This document shows positions 17,682 to 46,341 of a stretch of 64,000 nucleotides of DNA, piece after piece. A program made the translations under genes and the position numbers. Under the pieces are notes generated by a model. That model was not told where the DNA came from. It was given only the letters and a program-made list of their open reading frames with translations, and ran no database searches. Each line of letters starts with the position of its first letter. Positions within the stretch are counted from its first letter, which is position 1. Origin of the DNA: Gammaproteobacteria bacterium. GTDB taxonomy: Bacteria; Pseudomonadota; Gammaproteobacteria; Steroidobacterales; Steroidobacteraceae. The stretch lies in assembly GCA_016874295.1 (NCBI GenBank), contig VGUH01000004.1, positions 62,001 through 126,000 on the forward strand, in the 5' to 3' direction.

Positions 17682-18089
17682 TCAGTCGGGCCCGTTACCT
17701 GCACGGTACCGCTCCTTGAGCCGCTCCCGGGCCTCGGCGCGCATCTTCTCCCACTCGGCTTCCTGTTCGTCGTCCAGGATCGCGCGTACTTTTTCCTGGT
17801 ACTCGTCCGCCACAGGCCGCGCCTCGTGATACATGACGCGCCTGTCGGTGCGCGATTCGTCGCCGGCATGCTTTTCACGGATCGCTTTCAACTTCGCCGC
17901 GCGTTCCTCGAGCAGCGGCTTGAGCTGCGCTTCCTGCTCTGGCGTGAGTTTCAGCCGTTCCCTGGCCTCCGCGATCGCCGCCTGGATGGCCGCGGGATCG
18001 GCCGCCGGCGTCTCGCACGACGCACGGGCTGCGGGCAGCAACAGGATGATGCCCACCAGGAGGGAGAAGCGGAACCGGTACGCGCTCAT
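17682..18089 (-). CDS. Small periplasmic helical protein, Spy/CpxP-like
   Basis: A 135-aa protein with a signal peptide (FSLLVGIILLLPAARASC, cut near residue 25) and a charged helical mature part containing LKLTPEQEAQLKPLLEERAAKL and ILDDEQEAEWEKMRAEARERL. The LTPEQ and DEQ-WEKM segments resemble the LTxxQ-type repeats of Spy/CpxP periplasmic chaperones, although the match is loose. The start is chosen at the ATG with AGGAGG nine bases upstream (18089). It is divergent from the rhombosortase gene. Confidence 0.6.
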   Translation of the reverse strand: MSAYRFRFSLLVGIILLLPAARASCETPAADPAAIQAAIAEARERLKLTPEQEAQLKPLLEERAAKLKAIREKHAGDESRTDRRVMYHEARPVADEYQEKVRAILDDEQEAEWEKMRAEARERLKERYRAGNGPD

Positions 18090-18194
18090 CCGAGACCTCC
18101 TCAGCGCGGGGACGATGGCAGGAACGGCAGCATACATGCGCCGCGACCAGGAGCTTGGCTCCATAATGGCGCACACCTACGCACCGAGTGCAGC

Positions 18195-18782
18195 ATGCGC
18201 CTTGCGGCCACCTCCGGCCTGTATGCCGTCGCCGTCGCCGTCGTGGCAGCGGAAATCTTCCTGCCCGCGGGGGTCTTGGAGTACCGGCGCGCCCTCGCCT
18301 TCCCGGAGCCCTGGCGGCTCCTGACCGCCCACTTTGTGCACCTGTCCTTCCTGCACGCCTGCCTGAACGGCGTGGCGCTGGTCCTGCTCGGCCACTTGTT
18401 CGCGGATCGCCTGCGGCCGCGCGACATGGCCGGGATCCTCGCAGTTGCGCCGATCCTGCTGTCGCTCGCCTTCTGGCTCGCGTTGCCCGAATTGCAGTGG
18501 TACCGGGGCTTGTCCGGCGTCTTGCACGCGATCTACTTCGCCGGTTGCGTCGCGTGGATCGGGCAGACCGCGGGCCGGGCGCGCTGGCTGCCGATCGCAG
18601 CGCTGGTCGGCGGAACGGCGAAGGTCCTCGTCGAGCAGCCGTGGGACGCGAGCTTTCCGGTCCATGAGGTGCTACGCGTGGCGGTGGTTCCCCAGGCGCA
18701 CCTGATCGGAGCGGTCGTCGGCACGGCTGCCGGACTTGTGCTGCGCCAGCGCCGACAGCAGGAGGAGCCCGCACAGCCATAG
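18195..18782 (+). CDS. rrtA: Rhombosortase (rhomboid-family GlyGly-CTERM protease)
   Basis: A 195-aa inner-membrane protein with about six hydrophobic helices. It has the rhomboid serine motif in WYRGLSGVLHAIYFAG (catalytic Ser near residue 105) and a C-terminal histidine helix QAHLIGAVVGTAAG (near residue 174). Size and the GLSGVLH motif fit rhombosortase, which cleaves the C-terminal GlyGly-CTERM anchor of type II-secreted proteins. The convergent neighbour carries exactly such a C terminus, and the two reading frames overlap by about 110 bases at their 3' ends. The start is the first ATG in a good context (18195). Confidence 0.85.
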   Translation: MRLAATSGLYAVAVAVVAAEIFLPAGVLEYRRALAFPEPWRLLTAHFVHLSFLHACLNGVALVLLGHLFADRLRPRDMAGILAVAPILLSLAFWLALPELQWYRGLSGVLHAIYFAGCVAWIGQTAGRARWLPIAALVGGTAKVLVEQPWDASFPVHEVLRVAVVPQAHLIGAVVGTAAGLVLRQRRQQEEPAQP

Positions 18783-20843
18783 CAGCTCGACGCCTGGTGC
18801 GCCGCCGCCACCCCGACCGCCGGGAGGCGGGGTGACCGTGCTGTCATTGTCTGCGACATTCACGGTCAGCGACGCCGCCCCGTCGAGCGCCGCGCCGCCG
18901 CCTGCATTCGCGAGCCTGATCTCAAAGGACTCACCCTCCTCGTCCTCGCTGTCGTCGATGAGCGAAATCGTGATGACCTTGTCACCCATGTCGCCATCGC
19001 CCCAGGACAACGTGCCTGACGCTGCCGTGTAGTCACTGCCCGCGGTGGCGGTCGCGTCGGCGGTGCTGTAGTCGATCGTGACGGCACCCAGCGTGCCGCC
19101 GCTGCGCCGCACGATCAATTCGACATCGCCGGCGCCTTCTTCGGCGCCGGCAGCCGGTACCGCGAAGCCGAGCTGCCCGACCTGCTGCGCCAGCGTCGCG
19201 GCATGGTCACGCAGCACAAAGAGCCCGTTGTTGATGTCGCTGACGACTACGATGCCGGACGGGAAGAACGGGTACACGCCCCAGGCCCCGTCCGTTCCCG
19301 CGACGTTGGCGCCCGGCGCGAGGAAGGTGTCGAAGCTCGCGACCTCGCGCAGCCGCTCCGGGTCAGCGGCATCGAACACCACGAGCCCCCGGCGATAGTG
19401 CGAAACGTACAGGAAACCGTTCCTGACGTAGCCATTGTGGTCGGTCGTCGTATCGGGGCCCTGGTAACTCGCGATGATGAACGGATTGCGCAGGTCCTCG
19501 ACACTCATGGTGTAGATCTGCGTGCGCAGACCGCCGAACAGTTCCTCGGTCTCGTCATGCACGAAGATGTGCCGCTGGTCGGCGGTCGGCCACCCGGAAT
19601 GCGTATAGCTCGCATCCGAGTAGGTCGTCGACGAAAGCATGACCGGCGCCGTCTTGTCCGTGACGTCCCACAGGTCCACGGTGTTCTCGTTGAAGTCGAC
19701 ATATACCTCGCAGGGATCGTGCCCCGCGGCGCACTGCGCGGTGCGCGCGTCGGTGATCAGCAGGCTGGTCGCATCGTGAACGTACTGCGTGCCTGCCGGC
19801 GCGGTGGCGACGAGCTGCGGCACCGACGGACTCGCGAGGCTGTAGGCGCGCCAGGCACCGCCATTGACATTGCTGCCGGCCAGGTACAGGTAAGCCTGCG
19901 TGCCCGGCAACGCGATGTTGGTGGCGTAGTCGATATTCGAGACATAGGCCGTGTGCTGGGAGCCCGTGTCGGACAGGGTCGTGGCAAGCGTCGCGCTCAC
20001 CGGCAGGCCGGAAAGATCGATGACCTGCAGTCCGGCGCCGGAGGCCTCGGTCGTGACATAGGCGTACGCCCGGTAGCGATTGCTGCCGGCGTCGAAATGC
20101 TGGTAGACCTTGACCTCGCGCCAGGAAGACTCCGGACCGGGGATTGTGACGACCTCGCGCGGATTCTCCGGATCCGCGAGGTCGACGACGGCCGTGCCGT
20201 TGCCAAGCCCCACGATCGCGTACTCGCGGCCGTCGTTCTGGTCGACATAGCCCCAGACGTTGGCGGCTGCGAATGGCTGCGTGGAAAAATCCTCGAGTGC
20301 GATCTGTGCGAGGAAATCGACATTGCGACACGGAAATTGGCCGGCCTCGCCTTGCACGCAGGCTTCCGCCTGCCTGGCCGTCGCCTGCAGAGCGGGCGCG
20401 GGACTGTCGTCGACCATGCCTTCCCGGGCCGACGTGAGATCCGCCGCCCACTTGAACCCGAGATGCATCAGTTGCTGTCGATAGCGCCGGTCGACGCCGA
20501 CCAGGATCGTGGGATACGCATGGCGATCGCGCTCCACGAAATGCCCGCCCGGCTCGTAGCCGCCCTGGGCGCGGATGGCCCCGAACAGGAAGCTCTCGGG
20601 ATCGACGCCGGTCACGTCGTAGGTGCCGGCCGACACCTTGATTGTGTTGCCGGGACGGGCCTGCCCGAGCGCGTACTGGATGCTGGCGCATGGCTCGTGG
20701 TGTTGGAGGCATTCGGTGGCGTCCGCACCGGCGGCGGCGACGAAGCGCGCGCCGAGCGTGTCGTTATGCGAAGACACCGGAGTGACCGACAGCGCGAGCC
20801 CGATGACGCACGAGCCGGCGGCGCGGGCCTGCGCGCCGTTCAT
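18672..20843 (-). CDS. Choice-of-anchor B (LVIVD-repeat) protein with Calx-beta domain and GlyGly-CTERM
   Basis: A 723-aa exported protein. An N-terminal signal lies around residues 8-25, followed by a short region with paired cysteines. Beta-propeller LVIVD-type repeats span about 190-560 (for example YAIVGLGNGTAVVDLADPENP, VVFDAADPERLREVASF, GIVVVSDINNGLFVLRD). A Calx-beta domain lies at about 580-680 (VTIDYSTADATATAGSDY). The C-terminal sorting signal is a glycine-rich GGRGGGGAPG followed by a hydrophobic helix (VELLWLCGLLLLSAL) and a basic tail. This is a GlyGly-CTERM signal, the substrate mark for rhombosortase, whose gene abuts it. The 23-residue tail after the helix is longer than usual. 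Its ATG overlaps the preceding DUF1330 fragment (ATGA). Confidence 0.85.
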   Translation of the reverse strand: MNGAQARAAGSCVIGLALSVTPVSSHNDTLGARFVAAAGADATECLQHHEPCASIQYALGQARPGNTIKVSAGTYDVTGVDPESFLFGAIRAQGGYEPGGHFVERDRHAYPTILVGVDRRYRQQLMHLGFKWAADLTSAREGMVDDSPAPALQATARQAEACVQGEAGQFPCRNVDFLAQIALEDFSTQPFAAANVWGYVDQNDGREYAIVGLGNGTAVVDLADPENPREVVTIPGPESSWREVKVYQHFDAGSNRYRAYAYVTTEASGAGLQVIDLSGLPVSATLATTLSDTGSQHTAYVSNIDYATNIALPGTQAYLYLAGSNVNGGAWRAYSLASPSVPQLVATAPAGTQYVHDATSLLITDARTAQCAAGHDPCEVYVDFNENTVDLWDVTDKTAPVMLSSTTYSDASYTHSGWPTADQRHIFVHDETEELFGGLRTQIYTMSVEDLRNPFIIASYQGPDTTTDHNGYVRNGFLYVSHYRRGLVVFDAADPERLREVASFDTFLAPGANVAGTDGAWGVYPFFPSGIVVVSDINNGLFVLRDHAATLAQQVGQLGFAVPAAGAEEGAGDVELIVRRSGGTLGAVTIDYSTADATATAGSDYTAASGTLSWGDGDMGDKVITISLIDDSEDEEGESFEIRLANAGGGAALDGAASLTVNVADNDSTVTPPPGGRGGGGAPGVELLWLCGLLLLSALAQHKSGSRADDRSDQVRLGNHRHA

Positions 20844-21043
20844 GGCGCGCTGGCGGGCTCGACGCCCTCGACGAGGATCAGCGTGCCGGTCGAAGCGCTC
20901 TGCCTGATCGCCATCGCGACGCGGTAGTCCGCGGAGGCGTACCAGGCCTTCGCATGCTCGTGGCTCGGGAACTCGATCACCACGATCCGGTTGGTCGGCG
21001 TCTCAGCCGGCAAGGAATCGGTGCGGATGGCCAACTCGTTCAC
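20840..21043 (-). pseudogene. DUF1330-family C-terminal fragment
   Basis: The 67 codons contain the C-terminal half of a DUF1330 (dimeric alpha-beta barrel) protein: NRIVVIEFPSHEHAKAWYAS and IRQSASTGTLILVEGV. The matching N-terminal half lies 240 bases upstream in the same frame (21284-21424). It opens with a GTG that overlaps the stop of a small membrane ORF, so translation is possible, but half a barrel is unlikely to fold normally. The first ~16 residues (NELAIRTDSLPAETPT) are not part of the family. Confidence 0.65.
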
Positions 21044-21255
21044 GACGGTCTCCTCGCTTTCAAGAATCCCTCAATCACCCACAGGGCGGCCCACACCAGC
21101 CCCGGTGGGATAACGGCGACCGCAAGGAAGAGGTAGATGGCCGGGCGCGAATTCCAGCATCAGTCGAGGCACACCCACCCAAAGACGAAGATCCAGGCAA
21201 CCCCGAGAACCCATGCGACCACCCACAACCGGCGGAAGCCGTCGCTGATCGCCAT
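21040..21255 (-). pseudogene. Small two-helix membrane protein with an in-frame TGA
   Basis: A 71-codon frame from ATG 21255 encodes two hydrophobic helices (RRLWVVAWVLGVAWIFVFGW and YLFLAVAVIPPGLVWAALW) and a basic end (KARRPS). This is a common layout for small inner-membrane proteins. TGA at 21160-21162 stops it after 31 residues. It lies entirely between the two halves of a DUF1330 gene, and its final TGA overlaps the GTG of the C-terminal half. Confidence 0.5.
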
Positions 21256-21424
21256 GAGGGGCACCTTTTCCGATAAGTGTAACACCCTCGAGTTTCTCCG
21301 CGTGCCCTCCCCACGCGATTAAGCGGCCGTTGAACGGCGCAATCGAGCCGGGGGTCAGCTTGACGTAGTCCTGGTAACGCTCGGGATCCCGCACGTCGAT
21401 ATTGGCGATGACATAGGCCTTCAC
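21071..21424 (-). pseudogene. DUF1330-family N-terminal fragment
   Basis: The first 47 residues (21284-21424) are a clear DUF1330 start: MKAYVIANIDVRDPERYQDY, then FNGRLIAWGGHAEKLEG. After LEG the frame enters unrelated sequence and stops at 21071. The missing half resumes at about 20990, in the same frame. This is consistent with an insertion of roughly 290 bp inside one former gene of about 95 codons. No function is established for DUF1330. Confidence 0.65.
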
Positions 21425-21442: not shown

Positions 21443-21982
21443 TCAGGGGGACACAGTGGTCATGGGAATCGCCTGTGCCGGATAGGGAAGCTCGAGCGGG
21501 GCCGGCGCATGCAGGCAGAACTCCGGCGTCGGGCCGAGCGTCATGCGCCGCCCCCAGAGGGCGCAGCCCGCGGCAACGAGCGGTGCGAGCGACGAATCGA
21601 AAGCGGCGTAGCCCATGCCGTCCGGCTTCGAGAGCCAGTACGCCACCGCGGGGGCGATCACCTCCCCCATCCGCAAGTGGTAAAGGCCGCCGGTACCCGC
21701 GACCGCCATCGCAGCGACGCGGTCATGCGGCCGCTGGCGCGCTTCGCTCACCGCCGCGCCGTTCAGGGCATCGAGCGCGGTGGAATTCTCGAGCAGGTGC
21801 CAGTCTTCGTAACCTGCCTGTTCGCCGAGCCACGGAATCGCGTCCAGCCTGAAGACCCGGACGGCTCGCAGGCCCTGCACCCCCGCCGCGCGCAGCGCGC
21901 GGCGAAAATCGCCGTGGGCATACTCGTACTCGCGCGCCGCGGCGCCCGGGCGCGGCACGTGCCAGAAGACGTAGGCCAGCAA
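21443..21982 (-). CDS. Conserved hypothetical protein
   Basis: A 179-aa soluble protein with no signal or membrane segment. It begins AYVFWHVPRPGAAAREYEYAH and has YEDWHLLENSTALDALNGAAV, which recalls ferredoxin-like alpha-beta barrels, and a C-terminal region with WGRRMTLGPTPEFCLHAP. I do not recognise the family. The only in-frame start is a TTG placed directly after the stop codon of the small basic gene upstream, which implies translation coupled to that gene. Confidence 0.6.
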   Translation of the reverse strand: MLAYVFWHVPRPGAAAREYEYAHGDFRRALRAAGVQGLRAVRVFRLDAIPWLGEQAGYEDWHLLENSTALDALNGAAVSEARQRPHDRVAAMAVAGTGGLYHLRMGEVIAPAVAYWLSKPDGMGYAAFDSSLAPLVAAGCALWGRRMTLGPTPEFCLHAPAPLELPYPAQAIPMTTVSP

Positions 21983-40898: not shown

Positions 40899-41339
40899 AT
40901 GCTGATTTCACGACGCGAATCGGGCTTCACGCTGATCGAGATCATGGTGGTCCTGGTGATCATCGCGATCCTCGGTGCCCTGATCGCGCCCCAGATCCTC
41001 GGCCGCGTGGACGAGGCCCGGGTAACGGCGGCCAAGCAGGACATCCGCACGCTCGGCACCGCCCTCGACTTCTACAAGATGGACAACTTCCGTTACCCCA
41101 CGACCGACCAGGGGCTCCAGGCGCTGGTCCAGAAGCCGGACGACCCGTCGGTACGGAACTGGCGGGCCGGCGGCTACCTGAAGTCCACGACCATCCCCAA
41201 GGACCCCTGGGGCAACGAGTACCGCTACCTGCAGCCAGGCAGCAAGGGCGGTGAATACGACCTCTACTCTTTCGGCGCCGACGGCGAGCTGGGCGGCGAA
41301 GACGCCAACGCGGACATCGGCAGCTGGAACCTCGAGTGA
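40899..41339 (+). CDS. gspG: Type II secretion major pseudopilin GspG
   Basis: GspG is the main subunit of the periplasmic pseudopilus that drives type II secretion. The 146-aa preprotein has the prepilin peptidase site and N-methylated helix SGFTLIEIMVVLVIIAILG (Glu at mature position 5). The C-terminal calcium-binding loop (DLYSFGADGELGGEDANAD) is present. The ATG has GAGGAG upstream. It heads a gspG-to-gspN run; gspC, D, E and F are not in the window. Confidence 0.97.
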   Translation: MLISRRESGFTLIEIMVVLVIIAILGALIAPQILGRVDEARVTAAKQDIRTLGTALDFYKMDNFRYPTTDQGLQALVQKPDDPSVRNWRAGGYLKSTTIPKDPWGNEYRYLQPGSKGGEYDLYSFGADGELGGEDANADIGSWNLE

Positions 41340-41359
41340 CCGACTGAAGGACCGTGGCG

Positions 41360-41893
41360 ATGCCCGTCGCCCGTTTGCGCCGCTCGATGCGCGGCATGAC
41401 GCTCATCGAGATTCTCGTCGTCGTCCTGATCATCGGCATCCTGGCGGCGCTCGCGACGCTGTCCATCGGCCTGCTTGGCGAGGACCGGGAAATCGAGGAC
41501 GAGAGCACGCGGCTGGCTGACGCCATCGCACTGCTCCAGGAGCAGGCCCAGCTCGAGGGGCGCGACTACGGAATCCTGCTCGAGACCGTCCGCTACGAGT
41601 TTCAGCGCTTCGACGCCTTCGAGCAGCGTTGGGTCGTGATCGATGCCGACCCGGCGCTGCGCGCGCGCGAGCTGCCCGCGGGGCTTGCCTTCGAGTTGAC
41701 GCTCGAGGGCCGCGTCCTCCTGTTGCGGCGGGAACCGGTGCCCGAGGCGCGCCTGCCGCAGCTTGTCGCCTGGGGAAGCGGCGAGATGACGCCCTATCGA
41801 CTCGCAATCGTCCGCCGGGGAGGCAGCCGGATCACATTGGTCGGGCTGGTTGACGGCAGCATCGAGATCGAGCGCGGCGATGAGAAATCCTGA
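41360..41893 (+). CDS. gspH: Type II secretion minor pseudopilin GspH
   Basis: GspH is a minor pseudopilin at the pseudopilus tip. The 177-aa protein has the cleavage region RGMTLIEILVVVLIIGILA and a GspH/FimT-type C-terminal domain with LLQEQAQLEGRDYGILLE and VGLVDGSIEIERG. The ATG at 41360 is preferred because AAGGA lies eight bases upstream; a GTG at 41354 would be too close. The end overlaps gspI by 14 bases. Confidence 0.93.
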   Translation: MPVARLRRSMRGMTLIEILVVVLIIGILAALATLSIGLLGEDREIEDESTRLADAIALLQEQAQLEGRDYGILLETVRYEFQRFDAFEQRWVVIDADPALRARELPAGLAFELTLEGRVLLLRREPVPEARLPQLVAWGSGEMTPYRLAIVRRGGSRITLVGLVDGSIEIERGDEKS

Positions 41894-42371
41894 CCAACGC
41901 GGCTTCACGCTGGTCGAGGTCGTGGTCGCTCTCGCGATCGTCGCGATCGGCATGCTCGCCGTGTTCAAGACGATCGGCGACACGACCCACAATGTCTCGA
42001 ACCTGCGCGACCGCAGCTTCGCGACCTGGATCGCCGACAATCGCCTCACCGAGATCCGCGTCTCCGGCCAGATGCCGTCGGTCGAGGAGACGACGGGTGA
42101 AGTGGAATTTGCGGGCCGTCGCTGGCACTGGGTCGCCAAGGTTTCGCAGACCCAGGTGAAGGGCCTGCGCCGAATCGACGTCAGCGTGCGCCGCGACGAC
42201 GACCTGGAGAGCGCCAGCCTCGTGAGCCTCGCCGGCTTTGTCGGCGCTGTCGCAACGGCCTCGCCCGCGAGCAGTCCGGACTGGCTGCACCTGCACGGCG
42301 CCGGCGGTCCCGGCGGCGAGGCCGACGGTGAGGACGAGCAAGGTGACGGCAGCGGGGAAGACGGCGAATGA
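41880..42371 (+). CDS. gspI: Type II secretion minor pseudopilin GspI, with acidic tail
   Basis: GspI initiates the pseudopilus tip complex with GspJ and GspK. The 163-aa preprotein has RGFTLVEVVVALAIVAIGM and the family's AVFKTIGDTTHN, NRLTEIRVSG and RRWHWVAKV. The last ~40 residues are not typical: after DWLHLHGAG comes a glycine/aspartate/glutamate-rich run ending GDGSGEDGE. Typical GspI proteins are about 120-130 aa. The gene overlaps gspH by 14 bases and gspJ by four. Confidence 0.93.
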   Translation: MRNPDQRGFTLVEVVVALAIVAIGMLAVFKTIGDTTHNVSNLRDRSFATWIADNRLTEIRVSGQMPSVEETTGEVEFAGRRWHWVAKVSQTQVKGLRRIDVSVRRDDDLESASLVSLAGFVGAVATASPASSPDWLHLHGAGGPGGEADGEDEQGDGSGEDGE

Positions 42372-42985
42372 GCACGCAGCAGAGATCACGCGGATTCACG
42401 CTGCTCGAGATCTTGGTGGCGATGGTGATCCTCGCCGTCATGGGACTCATGGCCTATCGCGGCGTCAGCGAGGCGCGTGTCGCGGTCGGCAATGCCGAGG
42501 GCCACCTCGAGCGGCTGCACGCCGTGCAGCGCGGGGTCCAGCTGATGGTCACGGATTTCCGTACGCTGACGCGCCGGCCGGTGCGCGAGCCGATTGGCGA
42601 CGGCCAGCGCGCGACGCTCCTGCGGGATGCAAATGCCGTCACGCTGGTGGAGCTCTCGCGCGCCGGCTGGCCAAACGGCGCCGGCACGCCGCGCGGCACG
42701 GCGCAGCGCGTCGCCTACCGCCTGGACGACGGCAAGCTCATCCGTGAGCACTGGATCGTCATGGATGCAACGCTCGCGACGCCGCCGGTCCGGCGCGAGC
42801 TCCTGGATCGCGTCGAACGCGTCGAGCTTCGCTACCTGACGAACGGGCGCGAGTGGATCGCGGAATGGCCGCCGTTCAACAATACGGCGGACCTCGGTTT
42901 CTACATGCGCCCGCTCGCCGTGGAGATCACGCTGGTGCTAGCCGACTACGGCGAAATCCGCCGCGTCGTCGAGGTCTCGGGATGA
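42368..42985 (+). CDS. gspJ: Type II secretion minor pseudopilin GspJ
   Basis: GspJ is the tip pseudopilin that binds GspI and GspK. The 205-aa preprotein starts MSTQQRSRGFTLLEILVAM, with the cleavage after Gly and Glu5. The C-terminal domain has QLMVTDFRTLTRRPVREP, VELSRAGWPNG and AYRLDDGKLIREHW, all normal for GspJ. It starts in the gspI stop and ends overlapping gspK (ATGA). Confidence 0.95.
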   Translation: MSTQQRSRGFTLLEILVAMVILAVMGLMAYRGVSEARVAVGNAEGHLERLHAVQRGVQLMVTDFRTLTRRPVREPIGDGQRATLLRDANAVTLVELSRAGWPNGAGTPRGTAQRVAYRLDDGKLIREHWIVMDATLATPPVRRELLDRVERVELRYLTNGREWIAEWPPFNNTADLGFYMRPLAVEITLVLADYGEIRRVVEVSG

Positions 42986-43908
42986 ACCGGCAGCGCGGTG
43001 TCGCGCTCATCACGGCGATCGTGCTGGTCGCGATCGCGACCATCCTCGCGGTCCACATCGGCACGCGCGCGGCGCTCGACCTGCGCCGTACGGCCGGTCT
43101 CGCCGCGCTCGACCAGGGCTGGCACGTCGCCCTCGGCGCCGAAGCCTGGGCGGCCGAGGTCCTGAGCGACGACTACGATGACGACCCGGACATCGACCAT
43201 CTCGGCGAGGCCTGGGCGCAGCCGCTGCCGGGTCTGCCGATCGACGGCGGCGAATTACGCGGCGCGCTCGAGGACATGCAAGGACGCTTCAACCTCAACA
43301 GCCTCGTGAATGCCGGCCGCGTGATCGATCAAGGCGCTGTCGCACGCTTCCAGCGGCTGCTCTTCCATGTGGGCGCACAGCCGCGTTGGGCGAGCATCAT
43401 GGCCGACTGGCTGGACGAGGGCACGATTCCGGAACTGGAGGGCGCGGAAGACGGTACCTACCTCGCGCAGAATCCGCCCTATCGCGCGGCCAATGGTCTC
43501 ATCTCGACGACCACGGAGATGATGGCGCTACCCGGCATGACCCGCGAGGAGTTCGAGCGGATCCGTCCTTACGTGGCAGCCCTGCCGGTCGGCACGAAGA
43601 TCAATCTCTGCACCGCGAAGGCGCCGGTGCTTACCGCGATCGTCGAGGGTGGCACGGATTTCAGCGATGCGAATCTGCTCGAGGCGAACCGTGGCGACGG
43701 GTGCTACCCGACCGTTGAAATCGTGAGAGGCACGCTCGATACGGCCGCGTGGCAGTCGATCAGCAGCCTGGTGTCCGAAAACAGTGACTGGTTTCGCGCC
43801 GTGACCGCGGTTCGTATTGGCACCTCGGAATTCACGCTGTACAGTCTGATGCAACGCAACAGGTCCAATTCCATCCGCACCGTCCTGCGCTCGACCGGCA
43901 CCGAGTAG
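42982..43908 (+). CDS. gspK: Type II secretion minor pseudopilin GspK
   Basis: GspK caps the pseudopilus. The 308-aa preprotein begins MNRQRGVALITAIVLVAIA. It lacks Glu5, as GspK normally does. The alpha domain follows (LEDMQGRFNLNSLVN, ADWLDEGTIPELEGAEDGTYL), with a calcium-site-like acidic loop and PYVAALPVGTKINLCTAKAPVL. Length is normal. It lies between gspJ and gspL. Confidence 0.95.
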   Translation: MNRQRGVALITAIVLVAIATILAVHIGTRAALDLRRTAGLAALDQGWHVALGAEAWAAEVLSDDYDDDPDIDHLGEAWAQPLPGLPIDGGELRGALEDMQGRFNLNSLVNAGRVIDQGAVARFQRLLFHVGAQPRWASIMADWLDEGTIPELEGAEDGTYLAQNPPYRAANGLISTTTEMMALPGMTREEFERIRPYVAALPVGTKINLCTAKAPVLTAIVEGGTDFSDANLLEANRGDGCYPTVEIVRGTLDTAAWQSISSLVSENSDWFRAVTAVRIGTSEFTLYSLMQRNRSNSIRTVLRSTGTE

Positions 43909-43914
43909 CCCTGC

Positions 43915-45129
43915 ATGAACCAGTTTCTCGTCCTGCGGCTCGCGAATCCGGTCAGCTGGCTGATCGCCGGCGGCGATGGCGGCCGCCCCGGGCCGGTCGT
44001 TACCGGGGAATTCGCGGACGCCGTGCCGGTCGCGCGCGAGCGACAGGTGGTCGTAATCGCGCCCGGTTCGAGCGTGACGCTCGCGCAGCCGGAACTTCCG
44101 GTGAAGGGCGGCGCGAAGCTCGCACAGGTCGTGCCCTACGCGATGGAGGATTCGCTCGCCGGCGAGGTCGAGCAGTTCCATTTCGCCATCGGCGCGGCGG
44201 ACACAGGTCAGAGCACGCTGATCGCGGCGGTCCGCCGCGAGGAGCTGCGCGGCTGGCTCGAGGCCCTCGAGGCGGCGGGCGTTGAGCCCATGAGCGTCGT
44301 GCCCGACACGCTCTGCGTACCGGACAATCCCGGCAAGACGGTCGCCGTCATCGATTCCGGCCAGCTGCTGGTGCGCGCGCCCGGGAGCTTGCCGGTCGCG
44401 CTCGATGCGGAACCATTGACCGAGGCATTCACGCTCGCAGGCCTCGAGGGCGAGGACCGCCATGTACAGCTCTTCGTCTCGCAGCAGGACTGGCAGTACT
44501 CGCGCGAGATGATCGAGGCCTTGCGCGAGGTCACGGGCAGCCTCGACCTGCAGATCCTGCCTGACGGCGCCCTGCCCCTGCTGGCCGCCGGCGCGGTCCG
44601 CCCGGGCACGCTGTCGCTGCTGCAGGGCGAGTTCGCTCGCCGCACCGGCTGGCGGGCCGAGTGGCAACGCTGGCGGGTCGCGGCTCTGCTCGCGGCTGCC
44701 GCCATCGCGCTGTTCATCGGCGTGCGTGGCTACGATCTCGTCCGCCTGCATGCCGAGCAGGGTCGCCTCGATATCGCCATCGAACAGGCGGCGCGCATCG
44801 CCATGCCCGACGTGGAGCGCATCGAGGATGCGCGTATCCAGGTCGAGCAGCGCCTGCGCGGCGCCGGGGCCAACGACCCGCACGGTCTCCTCGAGCACCT
44901 CGCCGCCGTGGGCGGAGCACTCGCGGGCGCGCCGGGCCCGAAGCTCGAATCGTTCAACTGGCACGACCATGCGCTCGACCTCAACATGAACGCGCCGAAT
45001 ACCGATGCGATCGCGCGCTTTGCGCAGGGCATCAGCGAGCGCGGCCTCGCCGCCGACGTCACGTCGACTACCAGCAACGAGCAGGGGATCCAGGCTAGGG
45101 TACGCATTGCCGCAGGAGCCGCGCCGTGA
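43915..45129 (+). CDS. gspL: Type II secretion inner-membrane protein GspL
   Basis: GspL links the cytoplasmic ATPase GspE to the pseudopilus assembly platform. The 404-aa protein has a cytoplasmic actin-like domain (AQVVPYAMEDSLAGEVEQFHFAIG, then LDAEPLTEAFTLAGL), one membrane helix (RVAALLAAAAIALFIGVRG, about residues 248-266) and a periplasmic ferredoxin-like domain to the end. It begins six bases after gspK and overlaps gspM by four. Confidence 0.93.
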   Translation: MNQFLVLRLANPVSWLIAGGDGGRPGPVVTGEFADAVPVARERQVVVIAPGSSVTLAQPELPVKGGAKLAQVVPYAMEDSLAGEVEQFHFAIGAADTGQSTLIAAVRREELRGWLEALEAAGVEPMSVVPDTLCVPDNPGKTVAVIDSGQLLVRAPGSLPVALDAEPLTEAFTLAGLEGEDRHVQLFVSQQDWQYSREMIEALREVTGSLDLQILPDGALPLLAAGAVRPGTLSLLQGEFARRTGWRAEWQRWRVAALLAAAAIALFIGVRGYDLVRLHAEQGRLDIAIEQAARIAMPDVERIEDARIQVEQRLRGAGANDPHGLLEHLAAVGGALAGAPGPKLESFNWHDHALDLNMNAPNTDAIARFAQGISERGLAADVTSTTSNEQGIQARVRIAAGAAP

Positions 45130-45593
45130 CGCTGCGCGAATGGTATGCCGGACTTGCCGAGCGCGAACGGCGAACGGTTCTCTGGGGCGGAACGGCCGCC
45201 GCATGCATCTTGATCGTCGGGCTCGCCTGGCAGCTCACCGCTTCCGTCGCGATGGCGGAAGAGCGCGTCGAGCGCCGCCGCCAGGATCTCGCATTCATCG
45301 AGGCGGCGACGCCGATGATCCAGTCGCTGCCCGCGGCACGCCCGGGAGAATCGCTGACGATCGGCCTCGACCGGATGGCTCGCGAGAGCGGGCTAGCCGA
45401 GCAGCTGGCCGGGATCGAGCCGGCCGCCAACGGCGCGATGCGCGCGCGCTTCACCGCCGCCTCATTCGATTCCATGATGCTGCTGCTGGCGCGCCTGCAG
45501 AAAGAGCGCGGCGCTCGGGTGGAGTCAGCGAGCGTCACCGCGACCGGTGCGAGCGGCCTCGTCGACGCGACGCTCGTCATCCGCGGTCCCTGA
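45126..45593 (+). CDS. gspM: Type II secretion inner-membrane protein GspM
   Basis: GspM binds GspL in the inner-membrane platform. The 155-aa protein starts at a GTG in the gspL stop. It has a short N terminus (TLREWYAGLAERERRTVLWG), one membrane helix near residues 20-38, and a periplasmic domain ending in a ferredoxin-like pattern (LQKERGARVESASVTATG). Sequence conservation is weak in GspM, but position and topology are decisive. Confidence 0.9.
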   Translation: MTLREWYAGLAERERRTVLWGGTAAACILIVGLAWQLTASVAMAEERVERRRQDLAFIEAATPMIQSLPAARPGESLTIGLDRMARESGLAEQLAGIEPAANGAMRARFTAASFDSMMLLLARLQKERGARVESASVTATGASGLVDATLVIRGP

Positions 45594-45597
45594 CGCC

Positions 45598-46341
45598 ATG
45601 GCCAAGCGCAGCCTGTACGTCGCGGCAGGCATTGCCGCCTTCCTCGGTTTCATGGTGGCGATGGTGCCCGCGAGCCAGCTGGCGCGGCGGTTACCCGCGG
45701 GCATGGCGCTCGACGGCGTCTCCGGCACGGTCTGGTCCGGGCGGGCCCGTGCGCTGGCGGTCCAGGGCCGGACATTCGGCGCGCTGCGCTGGTCCTGCGG
45801 GCCGTGGCGCCTGGTGCTGCTAGAGTGGTCCTGCACGCTGAGCCTGCAGCCGCAAGGCGGTCAGCTGGCGGGCGAATTCACCGGCGATTTCGCGGGCGAC
45901 ATGGTCGGCCGCGGTATCCGCGGCAGCGTGCCGATCGGCCTGTTCGAGGGCGTGGCGACGCCGCGCGGCTGGACCGGCAGTCTGGAGCTCGACCTCGAGG
46001 AGCTCGCGATCGCCGCGCGCCGGCCGCAGTCGGCATCTGGCACCCTGTTTCTGCGCGGCCTGCGTGCACCGGGCGCGCATGGCCAGTACCTGGGCGATTT
46101 CGAGCTGGTGGTCGGCGAGGGGTCGGTGGGCGGTGCGACGCTGAACGGGAGATTGCGTGACCTCGGTGGGCCGCTGCGCGTGCGCGGCGCCGTCGAACTC
46201 TTCGAGGACGGCCGGTACCTGATCCAGGGCGAGGCCGCGCCGGGGCCTGGCGCGGGCCCCGCGATCTTCGACACGCTCGGCTTCCTCGGCCCGCCTGACA
46301 ACCAGGGCCGCTGCCCTTTCACCATCGAAGGTACTCTGTAG
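45598..46341 (+). CDS. gspN: Type II secretion protein GspN
   Basis: GspN is an accessory inner-membrane protein of some type II systems, with a large beta-rich periplasmic domain. The 247-aa product has an N-terminal helix (LYVAAGIAAFLGFMVAMVP), then LDGVSGTVWSGRARALAV, which is characteristic of GspN, and ends with the C-terminal CPFTIEGTL. It closes the gsp run and is convergent with the addA gene, 19 bases apart. Confidence 0.88.
   Translation: MAKRSLYVAAGIAAFLGFMVAMVPASQLARRLPAGMALDGVSGTVWSGRARALAVQGRTFGALRWSCGPWRLVLLEWSCTLSLQPQGGQLAGEFTGDFAGDMVGRGIRGSVPIGLFEGVATPRGWTGSLELDLEELAIAARRPQSASGTLFLRGLRAPGAHGQYLGDFELVVGEGSVGGATLNGRLRDLGGPLRVRGAVELFEDGRYLIQGEAAPGPGAGPAIFDTLGFLGPPDNQGRCPFTIEGTL

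Follow-up and report, generated by a model that had tools for sequence, protein, structure and literature searches.

A probable dedicated rhombosortase and GlyGly-CTERM-type target pair with convergent genes, and an overlap that is most likely a by-product of tight packing

Dedicated pairs of one rhombosortase and one GlyGly-CTERM protein were published in 2011 (Haft & Varghese, PMC3237569). That paper gives the marks of the protease as Ser-Gly-x-Leu-His with a His at the stacking position, AHxxGxxxG in TM6 and WRxxS/T in L1, and describes target tails in which a basic cluster forms the very end of the protein, with zero to five residues beyond the helix. Another close system is RssP/VesB of Vibrio cholerae, in which the rhombosortase is needed for VesB to be on the surface (PMC6219818) and VesB is cleaved by GlpG and released when the rhombosortase is absent (PMC13393428). 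Here, we describe a rhombosortase gene and the gene of its probable target in a stretch of 64,000 nucleotides of a gammaproteobacterial genome (the window, meaning the whole stretch of DNA that was analysed). Like the pairs of 2011, the locus has one rhombosortase and one detected target in neighbouring genes; as points of difference, it has convergent genes with 111 bp in common and encodes a tail that exceeds the published description in length. The words ‘convergent’ and ‘overlap’ were not found in the text of that paper in the sense of gene layout. With RssP/VesB the locus shares the protease family, a target with a C-terminal glycine motif and hydrophobic stretch, and a type II secretion system. 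However, V. cholerae has six targets per protease, against one detected here, and VesB is a serine protease whereas the window target is a choice-of-anchor B protein. A private protease/target pair is known in kind; a description of tail-to-tail overlap or partner exchange of such pairs was not found in a limited search of the open-licence literature. At a probability of roughly 0.8, we read the locus as a dedicated rhombosortase/GlyGly-CTERM-type pair with an overlap that is most likely a by-product of tight packing. The features are as follows.

18195-18782, plus strand: rhombosortase gene, 195 aa (TIGR03902, Rhomboid Pfam, AlphaFold2 model)
18513-18515, 18525-18527 and 18699-18701, plus strand: rhombosortase codons for Ser107, His111 and catalytic His169
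18672-20843, minus strand: target gene, 723 aa, with choice-of-anchor B (161-546), Calx-beta (553-666) and a C-terminal sorting tail
18801-18821, minus strand: glycine motif GGRGGGG, target residues 675-681, located by residue-by-residue coordinates and outside the overlap
18744-18791, minus strand: hydrophobic stretch of the sorting tail, target residues 685-700, from residue 688 antisense to the protease end RQRRQQEEPAQP and its stop
18672-18743, minus strand: polar C-terminal extension, target residues 701-723 and stop, antisense to the last rhomboid helix and the catalytic His
18672-18782, both strands: tail-to-tail overlap, 111 bp or 37 codons including stops, in register (position 1 on 3, 2 on 2)
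40899-46341, plus strand: type II secretion genes gspG, H, I, J, K and L, a weak GspM match and an open reading frame (ORF) without a match; candidate export route

Against the TIGR03902 rhombosortase model the protease reaches 123.1 bits, above the curated cut-off of 84, and against the Rhomboid Pfam 50.3 bits. All of the rhombosortase marks are present, as SGVLH at residues 107-111, AHLIGAVVG at 168-176 and WRLLT at 40-44, and S107, H111 and H169 are invariant in an alignment of 50 sequences. The closest structure to its AlphaFold2 model (pLDDT 93.1) is GlpG, with a Z of 18.1 and an rmsd of 2.7 over 167 residues, and Foldseek also assigns the model a rhomboid fold (E 6e-5). The last rhomboid helix of the model spans residues 166-190 and carries the catalytic His169. 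By family, motifs and predicted fold the protein is a rhombosortase, for which cleavage of GlyGly-CTERM proteins is the predicted activity. A gene for a small LTXXQ-like protein lies head to head with it at 17682-18176 (Pfam score 21.7, just below the cut-off of 24.3).

The target combines a full-length choice-of-anchor B domain match (TIGR04312, 399.7 bits) with a Calx-beta match (60.9 bits), and its residues 1 to about 25 look by eye like a signal peptide. Its tail runs from a glycine run through a hydrophobic stretch to a polar extension, which gives it the glycine-rich motif and the one hydrophobic stretch of a sorting tail. The end is atypical and counts against our reading: in place of a basic cluster within zero to five residues of the helix, 23 residues of mixed basic and acidic character follow the hydrophobic stretch. 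The general GlyGly-CTERM model, TIGR03501, reported no match to the target at E up to 10, a search in which program filters may hide weak matches. Because it misses the window’s own target, it was dropped as a detector and a dedicated tail profile, A2, was built from 17 rows that include the target’s own tail. A leave-out profile, from which the tails of the window and of G003 (a genome of the same genus) had been removed, was searched against 600 window ORFs and 200 shuffled versions and ranked the target first, at 11.1 bits versus 2.7 bits for the best shuffle; the score is modest, with an E of 0.016 in that set, and the same profile did not find the G003 tail at E 10. The two tails are nearly equal in length, with 42 and 43 residues after the last motif glycine in the window and G003. 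In a 15-row cargo set, which omits fragments, L141 (internal stop), one copy without a locus and Calx-beta-only matches, the same glycine run and hydrophobic stretch end the choice-of-anchor B relatives of G015, G041, G044, G055, G057 and G716, and the relatives of G043 (two copies), G056, G039 and G042 are without such an ending. Among the genome places listed, choice-of-anchor B cargo adjoins a rhombosortase only in the window and G003. Judged by its sequence, the protein would work like a GlyGly-CTERM target, yet its tail is not filed as a member of TIGR03501.

In the window’s genome (G000; 46 contigs, 98.83% complete) the A2 search scored 36 candidates, with the target at 35.8 bits and the next two at 16.1 and 12.8 bits, both of which end proteins that look multi-spanning by eye. 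The sole TIGR03501 match in this genome (10.4 bits, below the cut-off of 15.5) was rejected as a second target, as it is a helix near the N terminus, followed by a further 180 residues, and not a tail, and a TIGR04179 rhombotarget lipoprotein was not found. One target is thus detectable and its gene adjoins that of the protease, in keeping with the dedicated one-protease, one-target system that a sequence-only reading of the window had proposed; its suggested search for other GlyGly-CTERM proteins in the genome brought no further plausible target by A2, TIGR03501 or TIGR04179. A target may have been missed, given that the genome is 98.83% complete and in 46 contigs. The target is probably trimmed by the adjoining rhombosortase and is the one plausible target in the genome.

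Among the seven genomes of the genus, a rhombosortase over the cut-off occurs in two, G000 and G003, and the same two have a full-length target match. The other five have neither, with G006 matching the Calx-beta part alone, and are 75, 77, 87, 87 and 97% complete (four below 90%, two below 80%); the neighbouring gene at 21443-21982 is also missing from these five. In G003 the pair and the four genes upstream of the target, up to 22966, have counterparts that lie together, with protease and target genes 182 bp apart and without overlap. G003 also has a second target, the rhombotarget lipoprotein L147 (G003:C155:690-1472; TIGR04179, 285.3 bits), and one-to-one pairing is therefore not fixed even within the genus. 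Conservation in relatives, which had been proposed as a check, hence extends to the pair and stops short of the overlap and of the single target. Upstream of the target, a DUF1330 gene looks split: its front half reads at 21071-21424 and its back half at 20840-21043. About 200 bp of sequence are extra, of which the window contains no other long copy, and in G003 both halves align to a single uninterrupted stretch.

The type II secretion genes gspG, H, I, J, K and L (40899 to 45126) all score over their cut-offs. The ORF after gspL is a weak GspM match (19.5 bits against a cut-off of 120), and the last ORF of the run, 45598-46341, matches no NCBIfam family at 0.01. It occupies a position in which GspN is common. 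A gspD gene is on another contig (G000:C5:18720-20438, 538.9 bits), and the run itself comprises most of a set of minor-pseudopilin and assembly genes. The genes that had been named as the export route are indeed there, although their position 20 kb from the pair adds little, given that type II secretion systems are much more broadly distributed (Haft & Varghese, PMC3237569). In the mechanism that we propose, the target would be exported through Sec and stay anchored in the inner membrane through the hydrophobic stretch of its tail. Cleavage by the rhombosortase at the glycine run would follow, the new C terminus would receive a glycerophosphoethanolamine-containing group, and the type II secretion system would carry the product to the cell surface. 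We infer the cleavage, the added group and the secretion-dependent surface display from V. cholerae (PMC6219818, PMC13393428). An expectation of release finds no support in the same comparison: VesB needs its rhombosortase to be on the surface, and release occurs without it.

The least ordinary result of the analysis is that, on sequence trees, protease and cargo have different nearest relatives, on the Burkholderiales side and in the host family, respectively. The protease tree has 60 rows, hand-picked from 51 of the 113 rows of a first tree (from which L043, L055, L069, L072, L086, L107, L110 and L117 had been dropped as duplicates and L092 as too short) and from nine of 16 fetched Burkholderiales-side loci. 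In it, the window and G003 join 10 rhombosortases that have a tail-to-tail subtilase partner, with a support of 97/91 when the long-branch L202 is included and 96/76 for the 12 alone. Seven of these 10 records are named Burkholderiales or Burkholderiaceae and three only Betaproteobacteria, Proteobacteria or Pseudomonadota; their partners are subtilases by Pfam S8 for L044, L050 and L052 and by similarity for the rest. The alternative of a common group of the window, G003 and nine proteases of the host family is rejected (AU p 0.0034), a p value that is optimistic, as in the other tree tests, because the groups were chosen after seeing the first tree. In the tree of the 15 cargo rows, the window and G003 join the host-family genomes G015 and G019 (100/100), in which cargo and protease genes are unlinked. 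None of 300 genomes from the order to which a Burkholderiaceae metagenome-assembled genome belongs had a cargo match at 1e-30, in a set without a positive control; in a class sample the cargo was found at 1e-60 in three of 369 genomes, own genome included.

These placements would fit an exchange of partners at the junction, which is possible but unproven and in our view unlikely. Protease and tag-coding target end would together make up a compact unit to which various cargo bodies have become attached, possibly through recombination inside the glycine-coding repeat. A second subtilase type points the same way, as it occurs with two protease groups that resist being forced together (p 0.016). 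Other tail-to-tail cargo, that of L069 and L113, is unrelated, and tail-to-tail pairs recur with several unrelated families of cargo. L052 also looks like an exchange, but the protease tree does not bear this out (p 0.357). The tails favour neither source: mean similarities to Burkholderiales-side versus host-side tails are 23.6 versus 22.6 for the window and 24.5 versus 27.4 for G003. Besides the post hoc test groups and the uncontrolled cargo search, it weighs against exchange that a similar picture would result if the pair had been transferred as a whole from a lineage outside the sample, or from an old duplication followed by loss. A fuller version is similarly unlikely: that the junction is a portable tag-and-enzyme unit of well under 1 kb, joinable to new cargo through glycine-coding repeats, and that the cargo body was swapped from subtilase to choice-of-anchor B while the proteases kept the junction.

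The overlap itself was largely read correctly from the sequence: the ORFs, their coordinates and their opposite strands hold, and the estimated 110 bp are 111 bp, from protease residue 160 and target residue 688 to the respective stops. It covers the C terminus of the protease, including the last helix as claimed. Of the sorting signal it takes the polar tail together with the larger part of the hydrophobic stretch, and the glycine motif, which had been placed within the shared DNA, starts 18 bp past the end of the protease gene and lies outside. The overlap is staggered, with the essential end of each gene over a less constrained or spare tail of the other. The rhomboid helix HLIGAVVGTAAGLVL (mean hydropathy 1.92) faces the target tail (-2.03), and the protease end (-2.99) faces hydrophobic residues of the target (2.23). 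Across the overlap, the hydropathies of facing residues are correlated at a rho of -0.71. Such a correlation was rejected as a sign of design since it is mostly forced by the genetic code, which alone gives a rho of -0.52 over all codon pairs without stops in the same register. In 4000 simulated cases, the in-register antisense of such hydrophobic stretches has a mean hydropathy of -2.3, versus -1.0 in the other two registers. In-register codons thus make a hydrophobic helix on one strand read as polar or charged on the other, so that both genes keep tolerable tails; Leu faces Gln, Glu or Lys, and Ala faces Arg or Gly. This phase accounts for 21% of 1890 convergent overlaps in 58 prokaryotes, and convergent overlaps in E. 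coli most likely arise by mutation of a stop codon (PMC2174442). The overlap is probably neutral and most likely a by-product of tight packing, which would have arisen between convergent genes in GC-rich DNA and not as a device. That G003 keeps the pair without overlap, and that overlap lengths range from 4 to 111 bp among pairs, argue for this reading; a functional meaning of the overlap finds no support in the analysis.

Layouts were compared in a first set of 137 loci around rhombosortases (130 after the removal of seven duplicates), with a tail match in 22. One duplicate and L077 (target 433 bp off, with another gene called between) were removed from the list of adjacent pairs, and L201, L206, L210 and L211, which had missed the profile threshold, were included on inspection by eye, a relaxed look that was given to 16 loci only. 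The adjacent pairs are convergent in 22 cases, divergent in one (L116) and tandem in one (L200). Overlaps occur in 15 of the 22 convergent pairs, by 4-111 bp; the window’s is the longest, and those in other assemblies reach up to 67 bp. In a background of 82 loci with more than 60% G+C, processed with a simple gene caller of our own that allows an overlap of at most 130 bp, 20 of 76 convergent pairs overlap (by at least 20 bp in eight, at least 50 bp in five and at least 100 bp in none). The excess has a Fisher p of 7e-4 for any overlap and, counting against a by-product, of 8e-6 for overlaps of at least 20 bp (13 of 22 versus 8 of 76), with relatedness ignored in both; a rough count by lineage, with overlap in about half of them, gives no strong excess.

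This excess, together with the 12 of 22 pairs that have only 102-120 bp from the catalytic His codon to the last Gly-Gly, is what speaks for an improbable alternative, in which the overlap is kept by selection, either for antisense transcription through the shared 3' ends or for joint inheritance of protease and tag. Selection sits poorly with the G003 pair, which lacks the overlap, and with registers that differ between lineages: seven of the 15 overlaps are in register, six in the window’s protease clade and that of L092, which is too short for the protease tree and has a cargo that groups with the cargo of this clade. The only terminator-like site in 18000-21000 is not at the junction, and one is no more than in shuffles. 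Nor is the layout general. In the Marinobacter order, a rhombosortase is present in 91 of 293 genomes, and 40 of 92 listed places were taken; adjacent targets there are convergent in one case, divergent in two and tandem in four (L263, L264, L275 and a second L273 match were dropped by eye as not sorting tails, L268 and L269, 97% identical, were counted once, and L255 is the L116 locus of the first set). With tandem and head-to-head arrangements outnumbering convergent ones 6 to 1 in this order, a convergent layout was rejected as a general rule of dedicated pairs and appears lineage-specific. Two further observations come from these surveys. Contig C1 of G964, from the Marinobacter-order sample, carries two rhombosortases over the cut-off, and L045, L046 and L092 have two related sorting-tail subtilases in line, the nearer one overlapping the rhombosortase, a duplicated cargo.

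An error of sequencing or assembly, such as a frameshift shortly before the target gene ends, would account for a target extension that is unusually long and unlike the G003 tail, but it is very improbable, as neither match has an internal stop in the assembly, the tail in the separately assembled G003 is of almost equal length (42 and 43 residues) and other assemblies also have overlaps, of up to 67 bp.

The dedicated pair offers a small, one-target example of a surface-sorting route that has been studied mainly in a many-target bacterium, and its by-product overlap offers a clean case of two gene ends that use the same DNA under little common constraint. If partners are indeed exchanged at the junction, this would help to explain how one sorting signal comes to stand on unrelated proteins; otherwise, the pair is an ordinary one.
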